The position numbers were made by a program, and so were the translations under genes. Below, piece after piece: positions 23,352-43,416 of a stretch of 64,000 nucleotides of DNA; within the stretch, counting starts at the first letter, position 1, and every line of letters starts with the position of its first letter. Under the pieces are notes generated by a model that saw nothing but the letters and a program-made list of their open reading frames with translations, had not been told where the DNA came from and ran no database searches. The stretch is from Planctomycetota bacterium (GTDB lineage: Bacteria; Planctomycetota; Planctomycetia; Pirellulales; Lacipirellulaceae). The stretch covers positions 1 through 64,000 of the forward strand of contig JABDGM010000004.1 of NCBI GenBank assembly GCA_013286045.1, written 5' to 3'.

Positions 23352-24023
23352 TTAAAGCGGCCGGCTCACCACGAACTCTGCCGCGAGCAGATTGAACGTG
23401 GTGTCGGCATCAACTTGCTGGCCACGAAGCCAGCGGGCGAACTGATGCACCATCAGCCCTGCTATGTTGGCCGTATAGATCGTGCTGCGGGCCGTGCAAC
23501 GCCCTGGCTCAGCCTCGCTAGCACCGAAAAGCGTAGTCGGGTAATGCCTGCGGGAAGGTTCATTGGCAGCGACAAGCACTCGAATGACTTCACCAAGCAT
23601 GCGACCATCGGCCCAGAAGGTAGTTCTCCTTCCGACAGATCGCCAGATTGCAGCCCGTGTCTCAATGGAATCTACACAGCAGAAGACTACGGCGCCGTCC
23701 TCCGTTTTCGGGCTGAAGCGACCACCTATCGGTGAAACTTCAATGGCGGGGTCCAAACATGCGATTGCGTCTGCCGTAGCATGGACCTTGAGGACTCCGA
23801 CGTCATTCGCCAAATATCCCTGCGTCGTGATATTTGTCTCGTCCACCCGGTCGAAGTCGACCAGCTGCACCTTTTGCACGCCGATTGCTGCGAGCTGCAA
23901 TGCCACCTGACGTCCGATGGCACCGACGCCAATCACTGTCGCCGTAAGTTCAGTGAGCCGATCTGCAGGCACTAGCTCTCGCTGGCGTACAAAGCGGTCG
24001 TTAGAAGTCGCGAATAAAGCCAT
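23352..24023 (-). CDS. ThiF/E1-like adenylyltransferase
   Basis: [55 protein letters not shown] nucleotide-binding core; [30 protein letters not shown]; start overlaps the JAB stop by 23 nt. Confidence 0.93.
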
Positions 24024-24711
24024 GCTCGGCCTCCTCCAGGCTACGATCAAAGTCCGCATATTCGTGCCACGCGTCGAACCAGCCGTGGTCGTGGTCCTGT
24101 TCATGGGGCGAAAACACGCAAGATGCTTGTTTGGTCAAAGTCGCATCCGCCGGCTCGGGCCCAGGAGTTCGTATGTTGGCTTCGTACTCGGCGTGCCATG
24201 CCACGTGATCTGATGCGCCGAAGTCCCATCCGTACTCAATCTCCACGGGTAAGATCGCATCCATGCTCGGCCCGACGTTGTAACGAAGCCGTGCGTACGA
24301 CTCACCACCGCGCGCCAGAATGAACATGATTGCCCAGTCGCTCCGCCCAAACACGCGCTGGAAGGTTGCTTCGTCCGTGCCGCTTGGCTCCGCAGAACGG
24401 CCTGGATGGGTATGAATCCAAATCCGAGCGAACTCTTCAGGTCGCCGGCCGGCTACAACTTGGCGTTCAAAGAACTCGGCTACTGCCACGTCATCGAACT
24501 CGACGTGGACCCAGGTGCACGACTGCGTAACTAGCTCGATATCTTCGACTAGCAGCAGGTCATCTTTCGCTAAGATCCCAAACCCACCGATCTCAGTTTC
24601 ACCGAGGTCACGCAGGAAGAGGAGCTTGGCCCAGGCCGTCGGAGTGAATCGGAGCACCGATGGGCGCCGGATTTTCGGTCGCTGTTTCGTCTTCCCGTTC
24701 TTGATCTTCAT
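24001..24711 (-). CDS. JAB/MPN (JAMM) metallopeptidase
   Basis: JAMM motif: E of [11 protein letters not shown] ... [18 protein letters not shown]; overlaps the 3' end of the E2 gene. Confidence 0.9.
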
Positions 24712-25645
24712 GGCACTTGGTACACCTTTCATCATCTTCGAGGCAGCCAGTGCACACGCGGCGCTGGCAACCTTCGCAAGTTTTGAGACAGGATCGGCAG
24801 AATGGTTCTTCACAATCGGCGCAGCTGCCAACGCAACCGGAGCAGTAGCACTCCTCACACCCACCGCAGGGTGTTTCACACTCCCCGCAAATGGTTTCCT
24901 CACATCGATAGCACGTGTAGCTGTAGTCTTCGCTGACCAACGTGCCGCAGTCAGAGCAGCTCGTCCCGCCCCACAAGCTAAGCTCCACGAAGGGTGATTC
25001 AGAGTTGTAGGTACGGAGAATCGACGTCACGAGCATGAAGAAGTCGAACAGCCGGCCAGCCGTAAGAGCTTGCCGAATGGCGGTGTGTCCATCACCCTCA
25101 CAAAGGACATTGTCCATGACGTGAGGATGCGTCACATTCCGGCGGCTCTCGGCAGGGTGAGGATCTTTGGCAACTACTTCATATGCAGGAGGACCCGTAT
25201 GAAGCGGCCTGGTCCAGTAGAGCTGGATCTCAAATGGACCGAGGTAAACTCCTTCGAGCTCAATTGGGTCCGTCGTAACGGACAGTTGTTTAAGTCCTAG
25301 GTCTAAGCCGAGTTCCGGGAATTCCCTTTCGAGAGACTGAAGGTCGCTGTAGATATCGTTCGCCGTAAGGACGTGATTAGCACGGTTGCGCGAACGACTC
25401 AGCTCTTCACGGATGGCCGTTAAGTGGCTTTCGAGTGAGGGAAGAACGTATACTAAGTCTCGGCACAGTGAGTCTGCCGCCAGATGCCAGCCGCGATATC
25501 GTGCTCGCTTGACCAGCTTGGCGAGTTCGCTCACTCGATCCCAGGACATATTGGGCACTTCGACAGTCGGACTACGACCACGGCGAGCTAGATGCGAATG
25601 GATGGCCATTGCCGCGCGCACGAAGGCCTTTTTAATCATTGGCAT
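24608..25645 (-). CDS. E2-like (UBC-fold) protein fused to C-terminal tandem CxxC zinc-binding array
   Basis: E2-like core [32 protein letters not shown] (candidate catalytic Cys182 at about 25100-25102); C-terminal array of four CxxCx4CxxC units. Confidence 0.82.
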
Positions 25646-25664
25646 AGGAAGAACTCCGGCGCAT

Positions 25665-25701
25665 GAAAAAGCAGGCTGCCAGTCGAAACCAGCAGCCTGC
25701 T
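25665..25701 (-). terminator. Terminator/attenuator-like hairpin between Ubl and E2 genes
   Basis: Perfect 10-bp stem AGCAGGCTGC / GCAGCCTGCT followed on the minus strand by TTTTT. Confidence 0.7.
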
Positions 25702-25727
25702 AAGAGTGTAAGATTGTTCGCTCTGGC

Positions 25728-25970
25728 CTAGGCGGCCAGCAGCAATGAAGCGTTCGCCCCTTCGATTTTAGTTGGCGTCATCGAAACACGATTCCCTTCC
25801 TGAAGCACTTGGTCACGCGCTGCGGGGCGAGAGTCCACGCGAATGAGATAGTTTGATGCCTTTGCGCCGTGCATCTTCGAATCGGAGAGCTGACCTAATG
25901 TGGTTCCTTCTTCGAGCTCGACGTAGTCTGCGAAACCGCCACCGTCGTTGTTAATAAAAAGGACCTTCAT
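25728..25970 (-). CDS. Ubiquitin-like beta-grasp (MoaD/ThiS/PRTRC-C-like) protein, 80 aa
   Basis: [32 protein letters not shown]...[45 protein letters not shown] upstream of ATG. Confidence 0.83.
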
Positions 25971-26048
25971 ACGTAATTCCTTCCATTGGGAAAGTTTTTG
26001 AGATGTAAGTGGATGAGCGCCACGCCGTGTCAACCGGCACCTGAGACA

Positions 26049-26783
26049 CTACACAGCTAGGCCGCACACGGAATCCAGAAGTCCGTGCAGAGCTTGGGAT
26101 CTACTGGGCAGAGCGGCTAGATTCCGTCCCTTCCAGATTTCCGTCATCGCATTGTGAAATCGCCACAGTGTTTTCGCTTCGGCGAATTCCTCATGCGACG
26201 GTTTACGCCATTCTTCAAGTACAGCGGGCACTTGTGTTACGGGCAACACGTTTGCATCGACGGCCCGAATGACGAGGTCGTGTGCAGCTGGATCCGAGAT
26301 CTCTGTGTCCTTGTAATGGCGAATCCGTTCATCTTGCTTACCGCGCAAATCGGCGAGCCTACCTACCGCCGTGTGCACGACGCGTGGCAGGTCTCGCTCA
26401 ATGAAACGGGTATGACGCCTGGCAATCGTGACCTCGGCGGAAAACGCCAAATTATCACAGACGAACACGGCACTACCTAAAGCAATGGCCGCCGGAAAGG
26501 TTTTGTCGTGCGAGTTACGAAGACCGATCACGAGAGCGTAGTCATCGTGAGTCTCACCGTTCACGACTTCCATCAGACCAAAGTAGCGCTGGCCGTCGTT
26601 CCAAAGTGCATTGGCTTGGTTGGCGACGGTCATCCCGTTGCCAATCAGTGTCGATTCGACCTGTTCGAGTAGCCGGTGGTGCGGGACTGGCACCCAAGTT
26701 TCAGACGGCGGCGGCGTAGCGGCCTGCTCTACAACTTTCCGTTCGACGTGCCGGGCGCCGCAATGCAGGATTAAGTCCACCAT
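26049..26783 (-). CDS. DUF932-like protein
   Basis: GLRNSHDKTFPAAIALGSAVFVCDNLAFSAEVTIARRHT; GGAG 7 nt before ATG at 26783. Confidence 0.75.
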   Translation of the reverse strand: MVDLILHCGARHVERKVVEQAATPPPSETWVPVPHHRLLEQVESTLIGNGMTVANQANALWNDGQRYFGLMEVVNGETHDDYALVIGLRNSHDKTFPAAIALGSAVFVCDNLAFSAEVTIARRHTRFIERDLPRVVHTAVGRLADLRGKQDERIRHYKDTEISDPAAHDLVIRAVDANVLPVTQVPAVLEEWRKPSHEEFAEAKTLWRFHNAMTEIWKGRNLAALPSRSQALHGLLDSVCGLAV

Positions 26784-26841
26784 ATATATTGTCTCCAAAA
26801 GTGCTTTTGAGGGGATTTCGACAAACGGTCAGATAAACTGC

Positions 26842-27312
26842 TTAATTCGGCTCGGCCCGAATATGACGTACCGGAGACCGAGAATTTTCAGCTAAGAAGT
26901 CGAGCTCGTCGCTCAGGACTCGGTTGAGTACGAGTTCCTGAAATTCCGGCTGCGGATCGCGATGCTCAGCCGAGAAAAGAACTAGCCAGCAGAAGGCAAG
27001 CAGGACTGCCACAAGTGCGCAACCCCCTGCAAGTTGGATGAGAGAGACGAGCATCGACTCCGTTCGTCGATCGCCAGCAATCTCACGGCGTTCGGCTTCG
27101 AGTTTATCCCATCCCGTGTCGAGCCGGCCCCGCTCGGTTTGAAGGTCATGGTGGACACCAATGATGTCTTTGTGAGCTTGCGCGTCTGCCTCGACGACCT
27201 TTGCCATGGAAGTGTTTTGCTGAGCCTGCCGATCGGCTGCTTCGCGGGCGATTCGCGTAGCAGAGTCGTCACACCCGGTCATCAAGATCAGTAGGATCGG
27301 GATTGATTGCAT
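26842..27312 (-). CDS. Putative lipoprotein with coiled coil and TM segment
   Basis: MQSIPILLILMTGCDD lipobox, charged coiled coil, TM LIQLAGGCALVAVLLAFCWLVLF. Confidence 0.5.
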   Translation of the reverse strand: MQSIPILLILMTGCDDSATRIAREAADRQAQQNTSMAKVVEADAQAHKDIIGVHHDLQTERGRLDTGWDKLEAERREIAGDRRTESMLVSLIQLAGGCALVAVLLAFCWLVLFSAEHRDPQPEFQELVLNRVLSDELDFLAENSRSPVRHIRAEPN

Positions 27313-27460
27313 CAGGTCTTTTTGCTGCACGGTTTCTCCAGCGTGAGAGTAAAATGTGAAGTAACTTCTCGAGTGCGCGGCGCAGACGGATCTCACGTCC
27401 GAGTGCGAACACGGAAGCAAGAAGCCCAATTGCGAGCGCAATGGCGGCGAACATGATCAT
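27269..27460 (-). CDS. Small single-TM protein
   Basis: MIMFAAIALAIGLLASVFALGREIRLRRAL; overlaps the start of the lipoprotein gene. Confidence 0.35.
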   Translation of the reverse strand: MIMFAAIALAIGLLASVFALGREIRLRRALEKLLHILLSRWRNRAAKRPDAINPDPTDLDDRV

Positions 27461-28931: not shown

Positions 28932-29624
28932 TTGAATTAACCACCTTAACCGCGTGGCAGGGCACGCTTTCCCAATCTGAGTTCTGATGTGCATCGGCCG
29001 CTTGACGGTCATGGAGCAGGCTGATTTATTAGGCGCGCGAGGTGATGCAATGCTGTTGGGTTAGAATTCCACGTCAGCGAGTCGGACTAGAATAACTCGG
29101 GCGAGGCAGTAAATTCGCAACTCACGATTGCAATATAGATCCTGATTGCCGTGTAATGAGAAATGAACAAAAACTCGGCGAACGCGTTCATTGGCAACGA
29201 CAGCGTCGTCTACCCCAAACCCATCCCATGGATCGAATCGAAGTGTGGAAATGCTAAGCTACCAATCAATTATTGCGCACTTTGCGATTCGATTTAGCTG
29301 TAGCTCGACCGGTCAATTAGACAACAGCGTGCAACAGTCGTTACTAAACATTGACCGCCGGATATGCCCGTCCGATCGAGGGTCATTCACAGCTGTAAAT
29401 AAATGCGGTTTCGTGAGCCGTCTGTCCCCGAGTGGTTGCCTTGAGCGCTTCGACGAATCCCGCCATCGTGAGATAGCAACGTTTCCACTCTTGAGCAGCG
29501 TGCCGCATCTGCGACACATAATCTAACTAGGTTTACTTCGCCAGATTGTCGCTACCGCGCTGCCGATATGCTGCTAAGCCGCCGGGCTATCACGGAATCT
29601 CAATTTCATACTACACAAGAAAAC

Positions 29625-29646
29625 TGGAGGCGGCGGGAATCGAACC
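29625..29646 (-). repeat. tmRNA/tRNA 3'-end-like fragment (possible relic attachment site)
   Basis: Minus strand GGTTCGATTCCCGCCGCCTCCA matches a typical tmRNA T-arm/acceptor 3' end; no 5' half nearby. Confidence 0.4.
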
Positions 29647-29880: not shown

Positions 29881-30687
29881 CTAGACCTCAGAAGGTATTT
29901 CATCTGTATTCTCTAAGATCGCAGGCGAGGTATTGTTTAACCGAGACTCGATTGATTGGATGAAGCGAATAGAAGCACAAACGTGATTGTAGATAAGCAA
30001 GCTCTCCTCATAGTTGAGGAGGCAGTTATCGTGGGCGAAGCTCTGATTATTTCGTACGTGATTAAACGCCTCAATTGTCGAGATCGACGACTTCAGAATT
30101 CTCTCGGTCATTTGTGACTCTAAGAGCCCCTCGGCGCGGAGAAATTTGATGTACTCGCCGAGTGAGCTATGGACCGGCTTGTCCTTAGCCACGATAAGAC
30201 CGTGTTCGGTACATATCGCCCGGATGTATTTCGCGACGAAGGTGTGTAGCCGATCTAATCCCTGCTCCGGCTCATTGTTCTCGATTGCATCACGAACGGA
30301 TTTTGCCAAGGCGTCGAAGGTCCGGTCATCCGTAATTGGCTGGATTGCATCAAGTTCGGCCACGGGTGCTTCACTTTGCAATCGGGCTACAACCTTCCTA
30401 GCAAAGGCCACTAAGGCCCCGTCGGGATTCTGAAGCGTCGTGGCGTAGTCAACCATTGCCTCCGTTAGGGCCGCGACAATATGATTGGCTTCAACTTCCC
30501 AGAATTTGCGCAGTCGATTGGCTTTAGAACAGCTTGCGTATCGATACTTCGGATCGTCAATATCGCGACGCACGGCGTCTACGATGAATTCACGAAATGT
30601 TCGATCCGAAAAATTCAGTACGTACCCTCCTCCCATATCGAAGAGCTTTTCGAGCTGGCGTTTTTCGAGATAAGTCAAGTCTGCCAT
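29881..30687 (-). CDS. Abortive-infection (Abi_C-like) family protein
   Basis: C-terminal ...KDKPVHSSLGEYIKFLRAEGLLESQMTERILKSSISTIEAFNHVRNNQSFAHDN..., typical of Abi_C (HxR-like NxxxAHD). Confidence 0.7.
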   Translation of the reverse strand: MADLTYLEKRQLEKLFDMGGGYVLNFSDRTFREFIVDAVRRDIDDPKYRYASCSKANRLRKFWEVEANHIVAALTEAMVDYATTLQNPDGALVAFARKVVARLQSEAPVAELDAIQPITDDRTFDALAKSVRDAIENNEPEQGLDRLHTFVAKYIRAICTEHGLIVAKDKPVHSSLGEYIKFLRAEGLLESQMTERILKSSISTIEAFNHVRNNQSFAHDNCLLNYEESLLIYNHVCASIRFIQSIESRLNNTSPAILENTDEIPSEV

Positions 30688-30817
30688 ATAACGGTCCGAT
30701 TGCTTTTGGACATCCAAGGTGCAGATAGGGTTCGGCTCAAAACTAACACTGCTATTCTAAGTAGTTGATTTGATCTGCCACGTCCAACGGTTCGTCCAGC
30801 TCTCGGCCCAGCGACTC

Positions 30818-32212
30818 TTATAGATACCAAGTGACAAGCACGCGTTGCTCATCGGGCTTGAGAATAAAATCATAAAGGGTCGTATCAAAGGCTTGAATGG
30901 CTGTTGCGACGTCTTCATACGATTCCGCCAGGACATATCCAGCAATATCCGTCCATGCGACGCCGGCTTTTTTGCGAAGTGGTAATACCCGGAATTCCGT
31001 CCCTCTGTTGAGAACCTCTAAATCTGTAACCTGCGCTCGGAATGTGCGTTCAGCGATTCTCGTCGTTGCTGATGCTTGTCCTGGAAATTGAGCTTCGACC
31101 CAATCTCTGATTGATCTGGCATCTAAGGGATCGTCTCGGGTTGTGGCATAGGAGCTGAGATAATAAGAATTCGCTGTTTGCTCTGCTTCGCCGCGTGTTA
31201 GCCGAACCCCACGTGCAAGCAAGAACGCGGCGACCGGATCTTGAGTTCCCCAGGACAACAATTCCTTAAGCCAGAAGACAACCCACGGCAGTCCGAGCGA
31301 CTCCCACACGTCGAGTGACATCGGTTGTAATTGACCGTCAGAGATACGTTCATACGCATATCCGATCACGCTGCCTATTCCCCAGCAGCACCGATAGGAA
31401 AACCATGTTCCTACGTACCGATGCCAGTCAGCTATTTGACCTGCCGAAGGGTATTGAGTCGCATCATGACCGAGCCACCATCTAAGGATCGGCTCCCATG
31501 CTTCACGCTCTCCCATATTGAAGCGAGGGATGCCGCCGAGTGCGATGACGACAGACACGACGTAATTGAATTGCTGATCGCGATCCAAAGTGGCATAATC
31601 CTGCCCTTCCGCCATTACTGTTTCGATTTCCGAAAATTCATCAATTAATTGAAATGCAGTCGACGGTGGAAGACCGGTCCTGTAGATGCGGCGACGGCTA
31701 TCACGATCTGGGTAAAGCTGGGGTATGGCAGCACCGCGACGGAGAAACGCGGTTTGCTGGTCTACCGCCGCAAGATGTGATGCGAAAGATGCGTTCCACA
31801 AAGATTGCAAGCGCTCTTCCCAATTTGGGCCCGTCGATAATTCATCAAACTCTACCCTCCCGGCAAGTAGTACTGAATCAATGGTATCGAGTCCCGAAAC
31901 GTCAGTCACAACGCCCGTAGCACTACTCACGCTCACACGTTCCAGCCACAACAAGAATTGCTCTAAGTCCGCGCTTCCTGAATTCAAGCTCCATTGCTGC
32001 CAAACGTCCCGTAGAGCTTCCGCGATAGGACTGCGCGGCACAGTCGGTTCGATTTGCATGACTTCAGCTAGAAGCTCGAAATAACCTCGATTCGCACGAT
32101 CTGGGTTTGATCTACTCAGAAGGGGTGGGAGGAGTACGAGTGTGCGCCCTTCTGTCGCAACGCCTGGTCGGCCAGCTCGTCCTGCTAAATTCCGAAATTC
32201 GGATGCGCGCAC
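30818..32212 (-). pseudogene. C-terminal fragment of a Ski2-like/DEAD-box superfamily II helicase (N-terminal ATPase core missing)
   Basis: Begins at motif VI: VRASEFRNLAGRAGRPG; no Walker A/B in this frame before it; upstream frame runs into the DUF1580 gene. Confidence 0.75.
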
Positions 32213-32589
32213 CGATGGGGGATTTGCAGTCCCAGCCTTATGCTTCGAGAAGCCGGAGTTTCCTTGAGTTTTACGCGTACCAATTTGGTACCTCGTTCGT
32301 CGAGCTCACGTTCAACCTGCGCTTGCGCTTTGCCGGGGCCAAAAGTATTTGTAGGCCGCACGTTTTGGCCGCTGGCGGCAGTTAAAGCTTCGAGGAAGCG
32401 TTGTAGCGCTTCTACGCTGGTACAGGTCGTGTTGCCCACTACGATCGTTTCCAGAAAGACATTTTTTAAACCGAACTTAGCCCAATTTTTCAAGGTTCCG
32501 GGATAAGGCTGCTTGTCTCGTCGCCGTTTGGGCAGCAGCTTCGTTGCGTCCGACAGCGTGATCACGTTCTCAGTTAAAATGTCGATCAT
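32185..32589 (-). CDS. DUF1580-like protein
   Basis: MIDILTENVITLSDATKLLPKRRRDKQPYPGTLKNWAKFGLKNVFLETIVVGNTTCTSVEALQRFLEALTAA. Confidence 0.75.
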   Translation of the reverse strand: MIDILTENVITLSDATKLLPKRRRDKQPYPGTLKNWAKFGLKNVFLETIVVGNTTCTSVEALQRFLEALTAASGQNVRPTNTFGPGKAQAQVERELDERGTKLVRVKLKETPASRSIRLGLQIPHRCAHPNFGI

Positions 32590-32676: not shown

Positions 32677-33801
32677 CTAGAGATTGAGACGAACTTTTTT
32701 GCCTCGTCCTGAGTCGATTACATTGCGTAGTTCGCCCGGCAAACGTCTTTTAAGGTCGACGAGCTTCTCGTGCTTCCCAAAAACGTCGGGTCGCTGGTCT
32801 TTGAGCCTTGGAAAACTGATGCCCCCGGGATTTCGCCTGAGGTCGTCGAGCAGATAAGCGGCCTGAGGTTCGACCTTAAAGGCTTTCCCATCGAGCATCA
32901 CATCGCCCGTCTGTATACGCACACTCAGCCGAGCAGCCCCACCGAGTGCGGACGACACCGCCGTCTCGAAGAGCATATCAACGCACTCAATAAGAGCGAC
33001 TCTAAGATTAGCGAGAATATCTCGCTTTTTCAGTAGATCTGCTAAAGGCTGAAGAGCATCTGAGCCGAGCCCTACCGCTGACCAGTAGTGCTCCACATTT
33101 GACCGCCATAGACTGTGTGGCGCGAGATCACCCGGCTCTCGTTCGACGTGAATGATATCCATAGCGTTGTCCGCTGGACGGCTAAAATCGCTTAACTCAT
33201 TGTCGCCAATGGTCGCTAGCGGATTCATCTGGGGCGCCGAGTATCCATCCACTCGTAGCACCGGATACTGATTTAAAAATGGCTGTTGGAAAATGTAGAT
33301 GTCTGGTCTGCATAATCCTTCTTCCAGTGCACGCCCTAGCCCGATCCAACTAAGTTCGCCGCTAAAGACCTGCTGAATCGCTGCGTCTATACGTTCCCGG
33401 CGCGGAGCGACCAGAATTTCTACAATGGAGCGCCTAAGTGCATCAGGCTCATCGCTTTCCCCACTTGCAAGCTCATCAAACAATCGATTCAGCTCTTCCC
33501 CGTCAGATTCATGGTTAACTCTCAGCTCCTCCGCATGAGCGAAGATGGTATGAGAAGCCTTGCCCGCGCCGCCTTCCAGATTCAAACAGTGCGCGTAAAG
33601 GGATCGCAAGGCACTGAATGCCAGCTGCGACTGGGAGGGCCCATCATTTTCAAAGTTGCCATTTAAGCGACTCGGAAAATCCACTAATGCGGATTGCACG
33701 GAGTGGAATAGAAATCGAGCAAAGCTGCGTCCACAGTAAAGGGCGGCAACTTTTCGATTGGACTCAGCAGTAATCTCATACTCGTGTGATGTTGCGTTCA
33801 C
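32677..33801 (-). CDS. Uncharacterised protein, integrase-proximal
   Basis: Intact 374-aa ORF between the integrase and DUF1580 genes; no recognised domain. Confidence 0.6.
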   Translation of the reverse strand: MNATSHEYEITAESNRKVAALYCGRSFARFLFHSVQSALVDFPSRLNGNFENDGPSQSQLAFSALRSLYAHCLNLEGGAGKASHTIFAHAEELRVNHESDGEELNRLFDELASGESDEPDALRRSIVEILVAPRRERIDAAIQQVFSGELSWIGLGRALEEGLCRPDIYIFQQPFLNQYPVLRVDGYSAPQMNPLATIGDNELSDFSRPADNAMDIIHVEREPGDLAPHSLWRSNVEHYWSAVGLGSDALQPLADLLKKRDILANLRVALIECVDMLFETAVSSALGGAARLSVRIQTGDVMLDGKAFKVEPQAAYLLDDLRRNPGGISFPRLKDQRPDVFGKHEKLVDLKRRLPGELRNVIDSGRGKKVRLNL

Positions 33802-33856: not shown

Positions 33857-35086
33857 TTATCCGACCTCTCGGGCGATGCGCAGACCCAAATCGGTTTGCC
33901 GTTCGGCGTATACTTCCGTCACATCGGCCCGCTTGTGTCCGAGCGCCACTTGCGACCCTTCTAGGCCGTACAAGCGGCGAAGTTCCGTGGCGCGGCTGTG
34001 GCGCAACTGCAAGGGGAACCAATGTGGAATTCCACCGGCCCCTTCTCGCTGCCGCGTCCGATTAACACGCTGGATTGCGTATGTGATAGCTCGGGCGTAG
34101 GAGTGTCTGTCATATCGGTCCCGTTTTGCGCGTCTGGACTCACATCGGGGCTTCCGCCGACGTTGCGAGGGCGTCAGCGGGGTGCGTCGCTTGCTCCGTC
34201 TTTCTTCAGACCTCCACGCTTCTGCCTCTCGCGGGCTGAAGAGATAGGATCTGGCATCTCTGTTCAAAAATGGACGAATTAAGGCCTGCGCTTTTTGTCC
34301 TAAATAGATATAGCGGTCTTGTTCGCGCCACTTATTCTTGTGATGTTCCGGACAATAGATCCACACGTCGCCACTCTGGTCAATTTCACAGCTCCGCATC
34401 GCGACGACTTCGGATGGTCGCATTGCCGCCAGTTGTTGCAACTGGATCATGGCCGCCATTTGCGGCGATACTACTTTCAAAACGGCATCAATATACATCT
34501 GTGGAACGGGTTTCACCGGAGGCGCCTCACGTGCCGTCGTCCTCCCAAACTTCAGCGGGCTGACGGTGCGAAGCCCTTCATATACCGAGGAAGGGATCAA
34601 CTCTTCGCTGACCGCCCACTTAACTGCTCGCCGAATTCGATTGACCCGCCGATTAATGACATTCCGGGACAGCTTCCCCTCGTCGACCATACTTTGGCGT
34701 ACGACCTTGAGTGACAGCGGACCGAAGTCACGACCCGGGGTCCGTCGATAGAGCTTACGAAGAGGTCGAAGAGCGTACTTCATCTGCTGCAGCTCACCCG
34801 TTGGGCAGCTGTTGACATCGACGTAATAGGTCTCTGCAAATCTGATATAGAAAAGCAGCACCTCGTTGACGGTGCGCTCAGCAGAGGGCTGGCGGACAGC
34901 GGCCTCTTGAGTCGAGCGTTGATTCAGCCCTGATCGCCATTCGGCGAGGGCTCGCTCGTAACGTTCGTAGCTTTCCTCGGACCCGTGCGGGCCAAGATAG
35001 CGGTCACGTCCCGCGATGCGGACTACCGCTTGACCTGAAGCCTTATGCAGGCAATACGATGGAACTTTCGACTGTCTTTTGGACAT
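33857..35086 (-). CDS. Tyrosine recombinase/integrase (integrase B)
   Basis: QLAAMRPSEVVAMRSCEID, HSRATELRRLYGLEGSQVALGHKRADVTEVYAERQ; start moved inside the att/tRNA-derived MQVRILPSALD reading. Confidence 0.88.
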   Translation of the reverse strand: MSKRQSKVPSYCLHKASGQAVVRIAGRDRYLGPHGSEESYERYERALAEWRSGLNQRSTQEAAVRQPSAERTVNEVLLFYIRFAETYYVDVNSCPTGELQQMKYALRPLRKLYRRTPGRDFGPLSLKVVRQSMVDEGKLSRNVINRRVNRIRRAVKWAVSEELIPSSVYEGLRTVSPLKFGRTTAREAPPVKPVPQMYIDAVLKVVSPQMAAMIQLQQLAAMRPSEVVAMRSCEIDQSGDVWIYCPEHHKNKWREQDRYIYLGQKAQALIRPFLNRDARSYLFSPREAEAWRSEERRSKRRTPLTPSQRRRKPRCESRRAKRDRYDRHSYARAITYAIQRVNRTRQREGAGGIPHWFPLQLRHSRATELRRLYGLEGSQVALGHKRADVTEVYAERQTDLGLRIAREVG

Positions 35087-35197: not shown

Positions 35198-35245
35198 GTC
35201 TAGCGCGCTCGGCAGGATTCGAACCTGCAACCCCTGGTTCCGAAG
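35198..35245. repeat. 48-bp direct repeat, displaced tRNA-Arg 3' part (att)
   Basis: gtctagcgcgctcggcaggattcgaacctgcaacccctggttccgaag, identical to 43337-43384. Confidence 0.95.
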
Positions 35246-35345
35246 TGTCCTGTCGCAGCGCTCATAGGATTCTGACAGAGTATTTACCGGGAATTGCGCT
35301 AGGTAGCTACATCCCGATTGGCGCTAGACACGTCTTAAAACCACG

Positions 35346-35381
35346 AAAAGTAGGTACAGCTTTTGGGTTGTACCTACTTTT
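35346..35381. terminator. Strong hairpin next to att (bidirectional terminator candidate)
   Basis: AAAAGTAGGTACA-gcttttgggt-TGTACCTACTTTT, T-rich on the + side. Confidence 0.7.
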
Positions 35382-35402
35382 TCTTTTTGGCTCCCATTCA
35401 CT

Positions 35403-36029
35403 GTGAACCACACGGTTGCCGCTAGCGTACAAATTCCCAGCGCGCCAAACGCACTGGGCGCGCTGCCCCCTGATCGTCGTCAGCGTGGCTCAATAACCCT
35501 GGAGAATGTTACTAATGAGAGAACGTCAGTGTCTGAAATTCTGCGAATCATGCCGGGACCGGGAACACCCGGTTACGAGTTAGTCAGCCCCCGCGCGTTG
35601 AAAGTGTGGATTTCTCTTTTCCACCACTCACAAAAATTTGGGAACGGTTACGGCGGGCATTGGAACCTTGGGGATTTATCCGTGGGTTCTGGTTGTAATG
35701 TCAACACGGCTAGTTCCGCGTTGAATGAACTAGCCGCACTCGGTTGGGTTAAGAAGAGCCAGCAACGTCACGCCAGCGGAACGTATGGCGGGTTTCTCTA
35801 CGAATTGCGTGAGCCGTATACAAGTTTAAGTGAAGCCGCCAGCGCCAAGTATTTAGACAAGATTGAAGAGCAACGGGAGCGACTCGCCGAACGGGAGCGA
35901 CTTGTGACAGAGGCAGCACAACCGATCACAAATAATTGTGAGCCGTCGAATGAGGATCAGGGGAATACAGAGACAGTACGTCCGGACACAGAAGATTGTG
36001 AGCCGTGCGATCAGGATGGCGCGTGGTAG
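35403..36029 (+). CDS. Helix-turn-helix protein (mobile-element regulator/replication-type)
   Basis: WNLGDLSVGSGCNVNTASSALNELAALGWVKKSQQRHASGTYGGFLYEL; GTG start. Confidence 0.55.
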   Translation: MNHTVAASVQIPSAPNALGALPPDRRQRGSITLENVTNERTSVSEILRIMPGPGTPGYELVSPRALKVWISLFHHSQKFGNGYGGHWNLGDLSVGSGCNVNTASSALNELAALGWVKKSQQRHASGTYGGFLYELREPYTSLSEAASAKYLDKIEEQRERLAERERLVTEAAQPITNNCEPSNEDQGNTETVRPDTEDCEPCDQDGAW

Positions 36030-36076
36030 CAGGCTACCGGGGGCGCGCACGTCGCACCCCGGCATTTTGTTCGCGC

Positions 36077-36352
36077 CTAGGCTGCGTCCTGCCTGTCTGG
36101 TGACGGATACGCAGGAATATATTCCGCTGCCCCCGGTTTCTGTTTGCGATCAGCCCGATACTTCGCGGATCGGTAGCGTTGATCCTCTGCTTTTTTAAAT
36201 CGCTTTTGGAGTCCATCTACGGCGACCGCCTCTGAGTCCTCGGACTCCAGTTGCGTTTTCAAGGCAGTCATTGCAGCAATCCAAACCTTCAGGCATTGAT
36301 CGTGCATAGGTGCTGCGTCTACTGGGAGTGAGCACACAGGACAGTTATTCAT
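36077..36352 (-). CDS. Small zinc-ribbon-like hypothetical protein
   Basis: MNNCPVCSLPVDAAPMHDQCLKVW; downstream of 36349-37080. Confidence 0.5.
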   Translation of the reverse strand: MNNCPVCSLPVDAAPMHDQCLKVWIAAMTALKTQLESEDSEAVAVDGLQKRFKKAEDQRYRSAKYRADRKQKPGAAEYIPAYPSPDRQDAA

Positions 36353-37080
36353 TGTTGGACTCGGATCGGGCAACCGCAGTAGTTGCACGTTTGCGAAGTG
36401 TCATTAACTAATTTCCTACAAGCCTTGCACTGCGTTCGCTTCCCAAAAAAAACATAGCCACAACTGCAAAGCCGAACGCTGTTCTGGTGCTGCGCGCCGC
36501 ATCCTTTGCACGTCTTCACAGGCTTTTTTGTAGGGGGAATGTAAAGCTGATATCCGCACGCTGTACAAACTGCTACGGCGCTCTTTTCGAGACTTCCGCA
36601 GTTCGGGCAGAATCGTCTACCCCTTGGTGTTCCAGCGGATGGTTTGCGCGGACGGTTTGCTCTCGCTAGTTCGCGGTCGGCTTTCGCTTGTTCCCGGTAA
36701 GCTGCGCGCTCCGCTTTCGCTTGTTCCCGGTCGGCTTGGCGGTTTGCTTTTGCCAGTTCCCAGGCAGCTTGACGGTCAGCTTTCGCTTGTTCCCAGGCAG
36801 CTTCGCGCTCCGCTTTCGCTAGTTCGCGGGCAGCTTTGGCAGACTGCTTGGCTTGCTCCCGGCGGTTTGCTTTTGCCAGTTCCCGGGCAGCTTTGGCAGA
36901 CTGCTTGGCTTGCTCCCGTGCTTCGCGCTCTTCAATCTTCCTGGCAACTTTGGCTTGCGCCTGATCTCTTACACGCTGCATATATAGCCACACACAACCG
37001 TCGTGAAGTTGCGTGGGTCCGATCAACACGCGTGAGCATTCTTCTCCGCAGTATTCGCAGATGGCGTAGCTATCGGGCAT
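36349..37080 (-). CDS. Coiled-coil repeat protein with multiple CxxC zinc ribbons
   Basis: CEYCGEEC N-terminus; repeats of REQAKADRxAAWELAKANR; CPNCG...CTACG, CKGCG...CSCG, CKACR...CNYCG. Confidence 0.65.
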   Translation of the reverse strand: MPDSYAICEYCGEECSRVLIGPTQLHDGCVWLYMQRVRDQAQAKVARKIEEREAREQAKQSAKAARELAKANRREQAKQSAKAARELAKAEREAAWEQAKADRQAAWELAKANRQADREQAKAERAAYREQAKADRELARANRPRKPSAGTPRGRRFCPNCGSLEKSAVAVCTACGYQLYIPPTKKPVKTCKGCGAQHQNSVRLCSCGYVFFGKRTQCKACRKLVNDTSQTCNYCGCPIRVQQ

Positions 37081-37352
37081 TAGGCACGCTCATCCGCAGC
37101 CTTATCGAGCGCACGACGCGCCAAAGTACTAACACGTACTGCGTCCTCAAAGTTGTGAAACCGCCCGATCTCGACCACCCACTTATTCGATTCGGCGTCC
37201 CAGCGTACGCCGGAAGCCGTTGAAATTTTGGTTGCTTCCGCAGTCGCGATTAGTTTGTTGTTTTCATTCATAAAATTAAAACGACGGGCGCTAACGGACT
37301 CTGGTAGTAGTCCGTCAGCAGCACCGCCGCTCCGCCCCCTGGTCAACCTAGC

Positions 37353-37568
37353 TCAATGATTTTGTAACGGATTTACTTCAGGTTGCTGCAACCCGTTGCT
37401 CTTGATCCGCTGCAATTCGGCTTTTCCACGATCATCTAGTCGATTTTGGCTATTTAACCATTCGAGATACTCGACTTGCTGGCGCTCTGAGGCTGGACCT
37501 TGGTCCCAACAGGAGGAAGGTACAGGTGCTTTAAATTCGTCTGCAGTAGTGTTGGATTTGTTAGCCAT
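37353..37568 (-). CDS. Hypothetical small protein of integrative element
   Basis: In a tight minus-strand gene series (37080-37899). Confidence 0.4.
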   Translation of the reverse strand: MANKSNTTADEFKAPVPSSCWDQGPASERQQVEYLEWLNSQNRLDDRGKAELQRIKSNGLQQPEVNPLQNH

Positions 37569-37899
37569 TGATAGGTACCCCCTCTAAGTCGAGTAGTTTT
37601 TCACAATAGTGGATTATGTTTTCGTGATCCTGGTCTGCCTTGGCTTCCGCTAACTTCTGGTAGTAGAAGGATCGCTTGCGCTCCGTCTCCGCAGCATCGG
37701 CTTGGCGCTTTTGCTCTGCTTGCTTCACTGCGTCCCTAGCGCGGCTGGCTGCCAACAAAAATGAGTTCCTGCGCGCAGCTTGCTCCAGAGTTCGTTCGTC
37801 AAATTCACCATTACGGCAAACTATATGACGCTGGTCTACCAGCGATTGCAGGACTGCTGGCGAAAGCTTCAGCCGTGCGGCTGCTGAATTCAGGTCCAT
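37561..37899 (-). CDS. Hypothetical coiled-coil protein with HTH-like N-terminus
   Basis: MDLNSAAARLKLSPAVLQSLVDQRHIVCRNGEFDERTLEQAARRN. Confidence 0.5.
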   Translation of the reverse strand: MDLNSAAARLKLSPAVLQSLVDQRHIVCRNGEFDERTLEQAARRNSFLLAASRARDAVKQAEQKRQADAAETERKRSFYYQKLAEAKADQDHENIIHYCEKLLDLEGVPING

Positions 37900-37977
37900 A
37901 GATACCCCAAGTACTGATTGTGTAATCGCGTACTTGCGGTAATGGCTGCCGATCCGACAGGGCAGCTAGAAATCTGG

Positions 37978-38145
37978 TTATTGTTGGCTGCGCCGAACCC
38001 AGTTACTGCGAACAAACTTTGCCACAGCTTCCCGAACCATTGCCGAGAATGCTACCCCGTCTTGCTCAGCAAGCTTTCGAAGCAGGATTGCGTGTGGCTC
38101 GGGTATTTGGCAGCAGACGCGCTGCATTGGTCGGTGTGTTCTCAT
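37978..38145 (-). CDS. 55-aa ribbon-helix-helix (CopG-like) protein (not in supplied ORF track)
   Basis: GGGGGA upstream; MRTHRPMQRVCCQIPEPHAILLRKLAEQDGVAFSAMVREAVAKFVRSNWVRRSQQ*. Confidence 0.6.
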   Translation of the reverse strand: MRTHRPMQRVCCQIPEPHAILLRKLAEQDGVAFSAMVREAVAKFVRSNWVRRSQQ

Positions 38146-38699
38146 TTGTTGTCCCCCGTTGATATGCGAATCTGCATATCAATAATTAGAAACCAAGATG
38201 GGAGTTACGTTAATAGTAAACATGCTGCGCGATAAGTTGTTGCGGGCGGACTACTTACTTAAACTTTGCCCCGTGCCGGGGCGAGAGTTCCAAAAAATTG
38301 GTAGTAAAAAATCCAGAATTGCAAACGCCCCGGGGCACTAAAACCGCAAGTGAGGCGAGCTAAATGAAAGGCACGAGCGGGCGCGCGATGGGGTGGGTAT
38401 CCCGGGTTTAGCTTTTCACTGACAGCCCGCCTAACGTTCCGGCGCTGCTGTAGGCGCTCGCAAATGGGCGCGCACGATCAGGGATACATTGGCGCGGGGA
38501 CTCGGGAGCGGGTTTGCTGGGGCTCGGGCGCTGGGAACTGGTCAACAATCGACCGCACCAAACCATCGCGGTAGGTGCTGCCATAGCTCCAGGCGTCTCA
38601 GGTACGTCAAAAATCCTACAGGATTATTGACCAACTGCGCGCTAAGTGTAATAATGCCACCAGAGTTAGCCGATATAACGGCAAATAGGAGCTTAAATC

Positions 38700-39383
38700 A
38701 TGGGTCGCAACTGCGTTTCATACCTACGGGTCAGTGGAGCTTCTCAGATCGACGGAGACGGATTCACCCGCCAACGCCAAGCAATCGAGCGCTACTGCAA
38801 AGGGAACGAACTGCGGATAGTGGGCGAGTTCCAAGATGCTGGGGTCTCGGGGACGAATGAGCTTTGCGACCGTGACGGACTCCAGGCGCTCATAGAACGC
38901 ATCGCTGGGAATCACGTGCGGGTTGTCGTGGTCGAGAACGCGAGCCGTCTGGCGCGTGACCTAATGATTCAGGAAACGATCTTGGATCAGTTCCGCAAAC
39001 TCGGGGTTACGGTCCTAGGTGCGGACGGTACCGATCTAACCGTGAGCGATGACAACCCTACTCTAGTCCTCATTCGACAAATTCTCGGGGCGGTGGCGCA
39101 ATTCGATAAGGCTTGCACGGTTGCCAAGCTGAAGACCGCCAGAGCCCGTATACGCAACCGTGGCGAGCGCTGTGACGGTCGTAAGCCCTTTGGAGACCGT
39201 GAAGGGGAAGCGGAGACCCTGGAGCGTATCAAGCAGCTACGGCGCAAACCACGTGGCGCGCAGAGACTGACTTTCGAGCAGGTAGCCGACAAGCTTAATC
39301 GAGAGAAGCGCCCAACGCGTGCTGGGGGCGCATGGACCAAGGGAAGCGTACACGCGATCTGCAAGCGCCTGGAATTGGCGTAG
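38700..39383 (+). CDS. Serine recombinase/resolvase
   Basis: CVSYLRVSGASQIDGDGFTRQRQAIERYC, VVVVENASRLARDLMIQETILDQF. Confidence 0.92.
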   Translation: MGRNCVSYLRVSGASQIDGDGFTRQRQAIERYCKGNELRIVGEFQDAGVSGTNELCDRDGLQALIERIAGNHVRVVVVENASRLARDLMIQETILDQFRKLGVTVLGADGTDLTVSDDNPTLVLIRQILGAVAQFDKACTVAKLKTARARIRNRGERCDGRKPFGDREGEAETLERIKQLRRKPRGAQRLTFEQVADKLNREKRPTRAGGAWTKGSVHAICKRLELA

Positions 39384-39689
39384 GCTCCCGCGACTTCTAC
39401 CGCCTGAGTGTAGCGCTTTTTGCGCCTCAATTGCACACGGTAACGGAATCTGCGCCCGAGGCGTCTGCCGAGCGCATCACTGAGTACGGCAGTTCCCTGC
39501 GCCCCTGCGCGCCATAGTTAACTAGTTCTGCAAACTTTTGCCGAGATGCACCCAAAGCACACTGCTAAAGCATGCCCCAGCGAAGTCGCATAACTCTTCC
39601 ACGGATGATTCTTTTTCCAGGATGGTTCAAAGTCTGTCTTCAGTGACCACTACTTTCACTACTTTCAAGCACTCCTTTCACTGAGCGCA

Positions 39690-39755
39690 CTGCTACCCAC
39701 CACCCACTCCGCTCACACCCCCCTATATGTATAGGGGGTGGAGGGAGTGGTGGTA
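39690..39755. repeat. Long imperfect inverted repeat centred on CCCCCTATA-tg-TATAGGGGG
   Basis: Perfect core at 39719-39738 with imperfect arms (CACCACCCACTCC / GGAGGGAGTGGTGG). Confidence 0.75.
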
Positions 39756-39818
39756 GTGCTCGTGGTACAGGTCAATACAATCAGCGAAGTGAAAGGACTG
39801 GTCCACACGTCTCTGCGG

Positions 39819-41153
39819 TTAATCCTTCCATTGGAAAGCCTTGATGGGACTCTTCCGGTAGGTGACCGACTTTTGTACTTCCTCAAGCTTCCCGGCTTCT
39901 AAGAGCAAAGGAAACAGCTTTTTCCATCGTCGCGTGGAGATACCAGCCAGTTCACCAAGTGCGCTCTGACTTTGCGCCCCATGCTCCTCCGAAGCAACGC
40001 GCACCCTAGAGAATTCTTCCGTAAGCTGTTCCTCAGCCTTCGCGGCTTTCCTGTCGTCCTTGTCAGACTGCTGCTGCGCTTCCTCTTGCTTGTAGTATTC
40101 ACCGTCCCTAACTGCTGCGGTCTTCCAAATTGCAGCTTCCCGTGGTCCCGATGGATCACCTTCGTTGCAGTTCAGCGCCCACTTGGAACAGCTACCGTCG
40201 CTACCCCCTAGGTCCATCCACAACGCGTGGAAACCGTCTCCCTTATATCGCTCCCGCCTGGACAGCAACATCCACTGGCGGAAGTGCTCAGCAGCGCCAG
40301 CGCCAGCTAGATCATCTATATCGGGTGCAGTATTGCCGTCCCAAGTCTTCTTAATATGGTGACAGCAAATTGGCGTAGCATCGTGCTTTTCGACCATATC
40401 CGTCAGTCGGGAGTAAATCTCGACCATCTTCGGTGCATTGGCGAATTCATCGCCGGAAATCATTTTGAGTAGGTTGTCAAAAATCACGACTTCCGGCTTC
40501 CCGCTTAATATGATTCGCTCGCAAGCCATCATGTCTTCCATATTCTCGATGCGCGGTACGCAGTCGTCCCAATGGAAGTGCGCCCGTACATCGTCCCGCG
40601 TGAGTTCCTTGCCCTTAAGAATTCGGAACACAGATTCTTCCAACAACCCGCCCTTGCTTTCGCCCGCGAGCAGCAGAACGCGCCTAGGGCGGTCTACTGG
40701 GAAGCGTCCTAGGAATGGTTTGCCACTCGCTAGGGAAAGCGCAAGGTCCACAGCAATCGAAGACTTCAACGTCTTTTTCTTGCCGCCAAGAATGAATGAC
40801 CGCCGTTCCGCAAGCACGCCGTCAATGATGTACTTCGGCTTGTACTTGGGCTTGGCTAGTTCGTCGATGTCCCGCGCATTAAATTTGCCGAACCGTTCGT
40901 AACTAGTTTCACCCTTAGGCTTGGCGGGCTCAGGGATATAATTAGAAGCCTTGGAAGTCGATGGTTCCCCGCCATCATTCTGAGAGTCTGGAACCCACGA
41001 CCATTCTTGTACGTCGTGTTCGTCCCAGTCGGTTGTCCACAGAAGTTTCCATCCGCCCGGCAACTGAGCGCCGGCGGGTGGGGACTCGGGCATCGGTCCC
41101 GGGTCCGCATACGTTTCCTTCGTCTGTGCTCCCGTAATTGTGGGAGCGTTCAT
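39819..41153 (-). CDS. RepA/AAA_25-type ATPase (plasmid replication helicase-like)
   Basis: SFILGGKKKTLKSSIAVDLALSLASGKPFLG Walker A, EVVIFDNLLKMISG, ATPICCHHIKKT. Confidence 0.82.
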   Translation of the reverse strand: MNAPTITGAQTKETYADPGPMPESPPAGAQLPGGWKLLWTTDWDEHDVQEWSWVPDSQNDGGEPSTSKASNYIPEPAKPKGETSYERFGKFNARDIDELAKPKYKPKYIIDGVLAERRSFILGGKKKTLKSSIAVDLALSLASGKPFLGRFPVDRPRRVLLLAGESKGGLLEESVFRILKGKELTRDDVRAHFHWDDCVPRIENMEDMMACERIILSGKPEVVIFDNLLKMISGDEFANAPKMVEIYSRLTDMVEKHDATPICCHHIKKTWDGNTAPDIDDLAGAGAAEHFRQWMLLSRRERYKGDGFHALWMDLGGSDGSCSKWALNCNEGDPSGPREAAIWKTAAVRDGEYYKQEEAQQQSDKDDRKAAKAEEQLTEEFSRVRVASEEHGAQSQSALGELAGISTRRWKKLFPLLLEAGKLEEVQKSVTYRKSPIKAFQWKD

Positions 41154-41389
41154 TATTTAGCACCTCCGCCGATAACGGCTGTGTTAGATGCTTCGCGCTG
41201 CGCAATCCATTCGCGGAGTGATCGGGTTGAAAACCGTATGCCCTTCTTGCCGGCGCGTAGCCTGATAAATGGAATCTCGTTCGCTTTCCGCATGTCGTAT
41301 AGCGTTTTCGAGCTAACGTCTAGGAGTTTGCAAGCTTCGCTGATATTCACCAGCAAGGGCTCGGGGGTTTGGTTTGTTGCGACCATTAG
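41153..41389 (-). CDS. Helix-turn-helix (MerR/excisionase-type) DNA-binding protein
   Basis: LLVNISEACKLLDVSSKTLYDMRKANEIPFIRLRAGKKGIRFSTRSLREWI. Confidence 0.8.
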   Translation of the reverse strand, partial: LMVATNQTPEPLLVNISEACKLLDVSSKTLYDMRKANEIPFIRLRAGKKGIRFSTRSLREWIAQREASNTAVIGGGAK

Positions 41390-41668
41390 CAACACCTCAG
41401 TGTGAGTGATTAGGAGTGGATAAATACCTGATACGCCTAATTGTACGCGCGGGGATTCGATTCCGTAGAGCAAGATTCTGCACGGGTGCTATGCGGGTTC
41501 ACATACGTGTAACTAAAAACACAAACTCAATTTTTGCTCTAAAAAATTATCTGAGAATTTTTCTAGGGTCGATACGCGGGGGCGCGTATAGTCTGTTGTT
41601 CACGTTTCCAGGATGCCTGTTTCAATGCGCACGACGCGCCAATATGGCGACCGCTGATCTTCGTTACG

Positions 41669-41887
41669 ATGTCCGATCCTCAAAAACCTCAAAAACCTCT
41701 GGGACCGATCCAATCGGATACCGTCTATCCGCTACAGGTCTTCTGCGCTTTGTCAGGGCTCGAAGCAGCTTCACTCCGAAAAATGCGGGATAATGGCTTT
41801 AAGGTTCTACGCGTTGGCAAGTGTTCCTACATCGTCGGTTGTGAGTTCCTGAACTACGTTATCCAGCATGGCAAACCAGTAACTTGA
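41669..41887 (+). CDS. Small excisionase-like protein
   Basis: VFCALSGLEAASLRKMRDNGFKVLRVGKCSYIVGCEFLNYVI; precedes the integrase. Confidence 0.5.
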   Translation: MSDPQKPQKPLGPIQSDTVYPLQVFCALSGLEAASLRKMRDNGFKVLRVGKCSYIVGCEFLNYVIQHGKPVT

Positions 41888-41972
41888 CCCCATGCGCCGG
41901 ATTGTGCGAACATACCGGAGTCAAAGCTCCCGCAAGGGGGTACCTAGCAGGAAAACTCAATCGATACGGCAG

Positions 41973-42062
41973 CGCCATTGCGTATGCCGGTGCGCGGAAA
42001 CCGTAAGGACCGCAAGGCAATCTAGGTTGCCTGACAGCGCCGGCGCTCGCGATGGCGTTTTT
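41973..42062 (+). promoter_or_regulatory. Highly structured leader upstream of integrase A
   Basis: Nested helices: CGCCATTGCG/CGCGATGGCG, GCCG/CGGC + GCGC/GCGC, AGGCAA-tctagg-TTGCCT, then TTTTTG. Confidence 0.4.
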
Positions 42063-42079
42063 GTTTGTAGGTACCTCCT

Positions 42080-43336
42080 ATGAGTCAGAAGAAACCCAAG
42101 GTTCCAAAGGTGCGAGTAGTGCGTCCTAGTGGACGCGGTATCGAATTACGTTACACCGATCGCGAGACAAAAAAAGAGATACGACTAGCAACCGGCACTA
42201 CTGACGAATCGGCGATTGAGGACCAGAAGAAACAACTGGAAGCCAAACTGCTCCTAGGTATCGATGCCAAGCCCAAGAAACGCGTAGGCGGTCCCCACAT
42301 GCCATGGGCGGACTTCCGCGAACGGTTCCGAGAATTGCACCTACACGCGCTTCGCGAAGATTCCAGGGAAGCGGTAGAAGTCCGACTGAATGTGGCAGAG
42401 CGAATCGCAAAACCTCGCACGCTATCCGATATGGCGAACGCGGAGACGTTGCACGATCTCCAGGTAAAGCTACTGGAGGGCGCGGAAAGCACAGTAGGAC
42501 CAAAGGGCAAGAAACGCAATCGCGGTCCCCGATCTCCGCACACGGTAAAGTCCTATATGGTCGCGGTGCTGACGGCGCTGAATTGGGCGCGCGATGAGAT
42601 GCAATGGCTGCAATCAGTTCCCAAGGTTCGCAAGGTTAAGGTTTCAAAACTGAAGCATGCCAAGGGGCGGGCAATCTGTGAGGAAGAGTTTGACCGCGTT
42701 CTCGAAAAGGTAAAGGACGTAGTAGGTGCTGAAGCTGAAGAGTCCTGGAAATATCTTTTGCGTGGACTCTGGGAAAGCAGTTTGCGAATTGATGAGTTGC
42801 TACATCTCCATTGGTCCGACGGGCAGTACATTGTTCCGCAGTGGAGCAAAGGCAAATTGCCGGTGCTGCTGATCCCTGCGCCCATGCAGAAGAATGACAC
42901 TGAGGAAAGCATACCGCTGTTACCTACCTTGGAAGCGGTGCTGCTCGAAACCCCCAAGGCGCAGCGGTTCGGATGGATTTTCAATCCTTTGAGTTTGCAA
43001 ACGAAGCTGGGACGTAAGGTGCGGCATCAGCGCCCTAGCGCCGAATGGGTTAGCCGGATTCTCTGTCGGATCGGTGCGAAGGCTGGGGTTATCGTCCAAG
43101 CGGCAAAGGGGGAAGGCAAACCGAAGTTTGCCAGCGCCCATGATCTCCGCCGAAGCTGTGCCGAGAGACTGGCTAACGCGGGAGTCCCAGAGCGGGAAGT
43201 TGCCAAGGTTCTCCGCCATGCGGACGTAGAGACTACTCGCAAGTACTACGCGCCGGGGACCGTCCAAGAGTCCGCTGGCATCATTCGCAAGCAGTTGAAT
43301 GTACCTAGGTACATTGCCAAGTCGGAATCGTCGTAA
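42080..43336 (+). CDS. Tyrosine recombinase/integrase (integrase A)
   Basis: HDLRRSCAERLANAGVPEREVAKVLRHADVETTRKYYAP; stop codon immediately abuts the att repeat. Confidence 0.92.
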   Translation: MSQKKPKVPKVRVVRPSGRGIELRYTDRETKKEIRLATGTTDESAIEDQKKQLEAKLLLGIDAKPKKRVGGPHMPWADFRERFRELHLHALREDSREAVEVRLNVAERIAKPRTLSDMANAETLHDLQVKLLEGAESTVGPKGKKRNRGPRSPHTVKSYMVAVLTALNWARDEMQWLQSVPKVRKVKVSKLKHAKGRAICEEEFDRVLEKVKDVVGAEAEESWKYLLRGLWESSLRIDELLHLHWSDGQYIVPQWSKGKLPVLLIPAPMQKNDTEESIPLLPTLEAVLLETPKAQRFGWIFNPLSLQTKLGRKVRHQRPSAEWVSRILCRIGAKAGVIVQAAKGEGKPKFASAHDLRRSCAERLANAGVPEREVAKVLRHADVETTRKYYAPGTVQESAGIIRKQLNVPRYIAKSESS

Positions 43337-43384
43337 GTCTAGCGCGCTCGGCAGGATTCGAACCTGCAACCCCTGGTTCCGAAG
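43337..43384. repeat. 48-bp direct repeat, att at the tRNA-Arg 3' part
   Basis: Identical to 35198-35245. Confidence 0.95.
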
Positions 43385-43416
43385 ACCAGTGCTCTATCCA
43401 ATTGAGCTACGAACGC
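43343..43416 (-). tRNA. tRNA-Arg (anticodon TCG)
   Basis: GCGTTCGTAGCTCAATTGGATAGAGCACTGGTCTTCGGAACCAGGGGTTGCAGGTTCGAATCCTGCCGAGCGCG folds as a cloverleaf; CCA not encoded. Confidence 0.93.

Follow-up and report, generated by a model that had tools for sequence, protein, structure and literature searches.

Tandem arrays of genomic islands, each island with a tRNA gene fragment and an integrase of its own, are a recognised category in the Islander collection, which counts, among 3,919 islands, 125 arrays of at least two islands and 4 of at least three (PMC4383910). A review of integrative and mobilizable elements (IMEs) likewise describes how elements whose integrases are distantly related accumulate at one target (PMC5704250). 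Here we describe a locus of this kind in a Planctomycetota genome (4.4 Mb in 253 contigs, 59% complete). The window analysed, the first 64,000 nt of the 88.6-kb contig C4, contains an integrative element, A, bounded by a 48-bp tRNA-Arg repeat, and, just outside it, the integrase gene of a second element, B. The layout very probably arose by tandem accretion at a single tRNA-Arg(TCG) gene, where two site-specific integrative elements inserted one after the other, B first and A second.

The tRNA-Arg repeat and its two flanking integrases

The sequences at 35198–35245 and 43337–43384 are identical over all 48 bp, with a spacing of 8,139 bp, and their identity stops at both edges. No longer exact repeat exists within the window, and 20 Markov-shuffled windows reached a maximum of 18 bp, which bears out the original prediction of a perfect tRNA-Arg repeat here. 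As that prediction also held, the repeat runs from the anticodon loop to past the 3' end of the tRNA (tRNA positions 33–75 plus 5 bp downstream). The right, proximal attachment (att) copy (43337–43384, annotated without strand) overlaps a complete tRNA-Arg(TCG) gene at 43342–43416 on the minus strand, the sole complete tRNA that ARAGORN and Rfam found in the window and the putative integration target, with its 3' half supplied by element A. The left copy (35198–35245, also without strand; 100% identical) would be the distal att copy of element A and likewise the 3' half contributed by element B; it comprises only the tRNA 3' half and 5 bp, with neither a 5' half nor a complete tRNA.

IntA, a tyrosine recombinase whose C-terminal end points toward the tRNA (42080–43336, plus strand; PF00589, E 2.7e-13; integrase family phrog_1), has the catalytic motifs R, H-x-x-R, H and Y, and its stop codon at 43334–43336 directly abuts the right repeat copy at 43337. 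IntB, the tyrosine recombinase of the presumed older element B (33857–35086, minus strand; PF00589, with invariant catalytic residues in the family alignment), has its ATG at 35086, 112 bp to the left of the left copy. Both placements agree with those first proposed. BLAST detected no relationship between IntB and IntA. Element A thus delimited occupies 35198–43384, or 8,139 bp as a circle, and when the repeat-bounded interval was removed in silico, a complete tRNA-Arg was retained. Judged by Islander-type criteria, A has a complete tRNA at one end, an identical fragment in the same orientation at the other and an integrase inside. The repeat, the single complete tRNA, its clean restoration on removal of the interval and, in both integrase families, the conserved placement of the gene relative to the tRNA (see below) were all observed directly.

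Two such copies might also stem from an ancient duplication of the tRNA, without any element in between, and in one relative, G007, two complete tRNA-Arg(TCG) genes do lie 2.3 kb apart; among the related genomes examined, most have one complete gene and one has two. The left copy consists only of positions 33–75, at 100% identity, and an integrase gene stands at the edge of the interval, which is full of mobile-element genes. We consider a duplication extremely improbable, as the missing 5' half of the left copy contradicts it. The same holds for independent tRNA copies at 35198 and 43337, the contrary case that the original prediction had named, since the left copy is only a 3' half.

In the tandem accretion that we favour, element B with IntB would have entered first, by crossover in the segment from the anticodon loop to the 3' end, and would have supplied the 3' half of the rebuilt tRNA. 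Element A, with IntA, an excisionase-type helix-turn-helix (HTH) protein, a RepA-like AAA_25 ATPase and a resolvase, would then have entered the rebuilt tRNA, displacing B together with its tRNA 3' half and leaving the 48-bp direct repeat. From the layout we infer this order of insertion, the mechanism and any present-day activity: A should be excisable by IntA, probably with the HTH protein at 41153–41473, to yield an 8,139-bp circle and a tRNA restored beside IntB. Two results weigh against this account. Nucleotide synteny gave no empty site with the same flanks among ten relatives, which are too diverged (genus to family level, with flank synteny lost) and have no tRNA-linked block, and the outer att of B is absent from the window.

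We also noted that positions 35321–35329 read GCGCTAGAC, an exact inverted copy of the GTCTAGCGC at 35198, where the att site has its outer edge. Lying in a short intergenic stretch beside att, this inverted copy is a possible integrase arm site.

The IntA and IntB families and the DUF1580 neighbour

In relatives of IntA, at about 20 of 30 related loci, the integrase C-terminus faces an opposite-strand tRNA no more than ~140 bp away. The target tRNAs are Arg (TCG, ACG, CCT, TCT), Asp, Leu, Cys, Ser, Gln, Pro and Lys. At the far end of the element, a 46-bp tRNA-Asp fragment was found 15 kb away in genome G028 and a 45-bp tRNA-Arg(TCG) fragment 70 kb away in G026. Since tRNA-Arg(TCG) is also occupied by elements in G003, G015, G018 and G023, it is a hot spot in the family, and several related genomes have a displaced 3'-half copy of it (43–55 bp, 9–70 kb off). 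The element in G023 encodes an AAA_25 ATPase, as element A does, and one open reading frame (ORF) that we judged by eye to be a resolvase. Two further loci were noted in passing. An element of 11 kb (G015:C1:5542283–5553247) occupies tRNA-Arg(TCG) and has an att copy of 55 bp; by eye, its Rep-like and Zot-like genes recall a filamentous prophage. A displaced 5' half (positions 1–41) of tRNA-Arg(TCG) at G009:C10:24477–24517 corresponds to an island at the opposite side of the tRNA.

The IntB family was sampled in two overlapping sets of loci: 66 from related genomes, and 76 from a separate collection, scanned with a tighter subset of the IntB alignment, in which nearly every record title names Planctomycetota. 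A complete tRNA on the same strand ends at a median of 121–122 bp before the integrase start at 62 of the 76 and 44 of the 66 loci, and a tRNA 3' half only is found at equal distance at 5/76 and 13/66 loci (control: a 3' half in 0.2% of random 350-bp stretches). In the window, the IntB start lies 117 bp from position 35203, which is equivalent to the tRNA end; IntB would therefore once have abutted an intact tRNA, from which A later displaced it. The family uses more than 20 tRNA isoacceptors, with at least 39 isotype changes on a FastTree tree, and most B-family elements that were read at length have a 40–45-bp tRNA fragment at the far end and span 7.6–37 kb. On the sequence evidence, the IntB family is Planctomycetota-wide and distinct from that of IntA.

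Genomes G049 (tRNA-Asn) and G021 (tRNA-Ala) both present the order tRNA, IntB, element, 43-bp tRNA half and second IntB, which identifies them, as read from their gene order, as independent tandems with a layout like that of the window. With both integrase families adjoining tRNA 3' ends in matching geometry in relatives, and two genomes of equal tandem layout, the earlier suggestion of sequential insertion into one tRNA gains support. A different arrangement was seen at G041:C1:887501–898955, where two inverted IntB genes of equal identity to the query lie one beside a complete tRNA-Pro and the other beside its 3' half.

On the same strand as IntB and 1,349 bp downstream of it, the window encodes a DUF1580 protein (32185–32589, minus strand; PF07618) with a C-terminal tail longer than the usual family end; an ORF without a Pfam match (32677–33801, minus strand) lies between the two. 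By Pfam-based counts, a DUF1580 gene occurs within 6 kb of 63 of 91 IntB-family genes, downstream in every case, on the same strand in 56 and usually 0.5–2 kb off, and near 0 of 34 IntA-family genes; the chance expectation is ~0.4%. A structure model of the window protein is confident over residues 1–70 and consists of helix, helix, beta-hairpin and helix, as in winged-HTH excision factors. Searched against the PDB, the fold of this model gave no hit at E <0.001 (the best were TraN DNA-binding proteins, E ~0.5), and a profile search of the PDB gave no match. The literature searched does not mention the DUF1580 family. Taken together, the gene context and a winged-HTH-like model with no significant PDB match make DUF1580 a candidate excision or directionality factor of element B. 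It is an even bet, in our estimate, that IntB and DUF1580 form a Planctomycetota-wide integration and excision module in which the integrase switched its target among more than 20 tRNA isoacceptors but held its start codon at ~121 bp from the 3' end of the tRNA, with DUF1580 as the recombination directionality factor (RDF).

The outer limit of element B

No third tRNA-Arg att, degenerate copies included, was found in C4:1–33.8 kb, where the best match was no better than in shuffles. The original prediction of no further copy to the left therefore holds for the window, and the search it proposed for a third copy yielded none there and two 3'-half copies on contig C7 of the same genome. One, C7:42149–42207, is identical over 59 bp to window positions 43328–43386. 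The other, C7:17087–17130, 25 kb from the first, matches the tRNA-Arg(TCG) 3' half at 43 of 44 positions; no complete tRNA is present at either. Beside C7:42149–42207 lies a third integrase gene, IntC (C7:41428–42141), truncated and apparently frameshifted. Homologs of IntC adjoin a complete tRNA-Arg(TCG) in G010, G027, G033 and G035, with full-length ORFs of ~400 aa in three of them. Of the two items that define a member of a tandem array, its own integrase and its own fragment, A has both, and B has the integrase, with candidates for the fragment on C7.

These copies raise the possibility of three or more layers, in which they would be further distal att copies: an element C (C7:17087–42207, with the broken IntC) outermost, B between C7:42149 and C4:35245, with a contig gap inside it, and A innermost. 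All copies share the same orientation and the same tRNA end position, and none has a 5' half. The integrase would be tRNA-proximal in every layer, as it is for the IntC homologs directly beside complete tRNA-Arg(TCG) genes, and the one more distal copy that IntB needs is available on C7. However, no overlap links the right end of C7 to the left end of C4, their sole shared sequence being an inverted 207-bp repeat, and C4:1–22.5 kb resembles ordinary planctomycete chromosome, with genes such as MoxR and PSCyt2/PSD1. The implied B would also exceed 68 kb, as against 7.6–37 kb for other B-family elements. We regard three layers as tentative and lean slightly away from them.

Alternatively, B is a decayed element of 6–12 kb with its left end near 22.5–29.6 kb and its outer att lost, and the C7 copies are relics of rearrangement at other loci. 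The G+C content dips at 28–34 kb, and mobile-type genes fill the region from IntB down to ~23.3 kb (a HamB-like helicase part, Abi_C, DUF932 and ThiF). A 28-bp copy of a tmRNA 3' end at 29619–29646 indicates a mosaic history. Set against this, the outer att must have been lost and both C7 copies need a separate origin; we find the arguments for and against such a decayed B evenly balanced.

The HamB-like (Hachiman) gene at 30818–32212 (minus strand; weak PADLOC HamB matches) is a C-terminal part for which no N-terminal part was found, and is probably a broken remnant. It overlaps the unusual tail of the DUF1580 reading frame, and this overlap suggests that a deletion joined the two. Next to it, an Abi_C-domain protein (29881–30717, minus strand; PF14355, E 8.9e-11) is a candidate for phage defence. 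At 23352–27441, a ThiF/E1-like protein, a small protein that looks ubiquitin-like by eye (25728–26033) and a DUF932 protein form a cluster resembling the ubiquitin-like conjugation clusters of mobile elements; its profile evidence is a weak PRTRC_ThiF match only. The tmRNA copy at 29619–29646 is exact and includes ~5 bp of downstream flank; the tmRNA gene of this genome is on contig C129, and the copy is an orphan tmRNA att-type fragment inside the element B region.

Gene content of element A and comparison with known systems

Within element A, the HTH_17/excisionase-type DNA-binding protein (41153–41473, minus strand; PF12728, TIGR01764 above cut-off, excisionase family phrog_66) is the likely excision factor of the element. 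An AAA_25 (RepA-like) ATPase (39819–41153, minus strand; PF13481, E 1.6e-23; phage primase/helicase families) is a probable replicative helicase; compared with plasmid relatives it gave a single weak match, and its phage matches are weak primase/helicases. The resolvase is a small serine recombinase (38700–39383, plus strand; PF00239, E 7.7e-27). An HTH_36, replication-initiation-like protein at 35403–36029 (plus strand) matches weakly (PF13730, E 0.0011, below cut-off; phrog_270, E 3.7e-4). A repetitive zinc-ribbon protein of no assigned function (36349–37080, minus strand) has weak zinc-ribbon matches below cut-off and internal repeats; its gene contains 33-bp imperfect tandem repeats at 36660–36930. 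The element also encodes small proteins of no assigned function. Pfam searches of the element A proteins matched none of them to a relaxase, to a coupling protein or to type IV secretion. No phage packaging or structural gene was found, the PHROGs matches being to integration and replication functions, and the lone packaging-type match was a weak one of the HTH_17 protein to a small-terminase family (E 0.0023).

The stacked pair is an ordinary, already known kind of tRNA accretion; the parts worth following are the regular spacing of IntB and its partnership with DUF1580. A near-fixed distance from integrase start to tRNA end makes island boundaries findable and displaced (stacked) elements countable in a little-studied phylum, and the strong IntB-family/DUF1580 neighbourhood provides a testable function for DUF1580. 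With at least 39 isotype changes on its tree, the IntB family is also a possible natural series for how integrases switch target.

DUF1580 resembles RDFs of the winged-HTH RdfS type (PMC11963761) in being small, in its winged-HTH-like model and in being encoded with a tyrosine integrase; it differs in that neither its sequence nor its modelled fold significantly matched a solved excisionase. Element A differs from integrative and conjugative elements (ICEs) and IMEs in that the Pfam search matched no relaxase or transfer gene, and the locus is like the accretion of ICEs, IMEs and cis-mobilizable elements (CIMEs) in that one target is common to distantly related integrases (PMC5704250). The closest likeness in layout is to the tRNA and tmRNA islands of Islander (PMC4383910), with which it shares a split and restored tRNA, a displaced 3' fragment, a tyrosine integrase and the anticodon-loop crossover class. 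It departs from the Islander cases in that the outer fragment of B was not located in the window, in its planctomycete-like host and in its two unrelated integrase families, which stand in opposite orientation to the tRNA.
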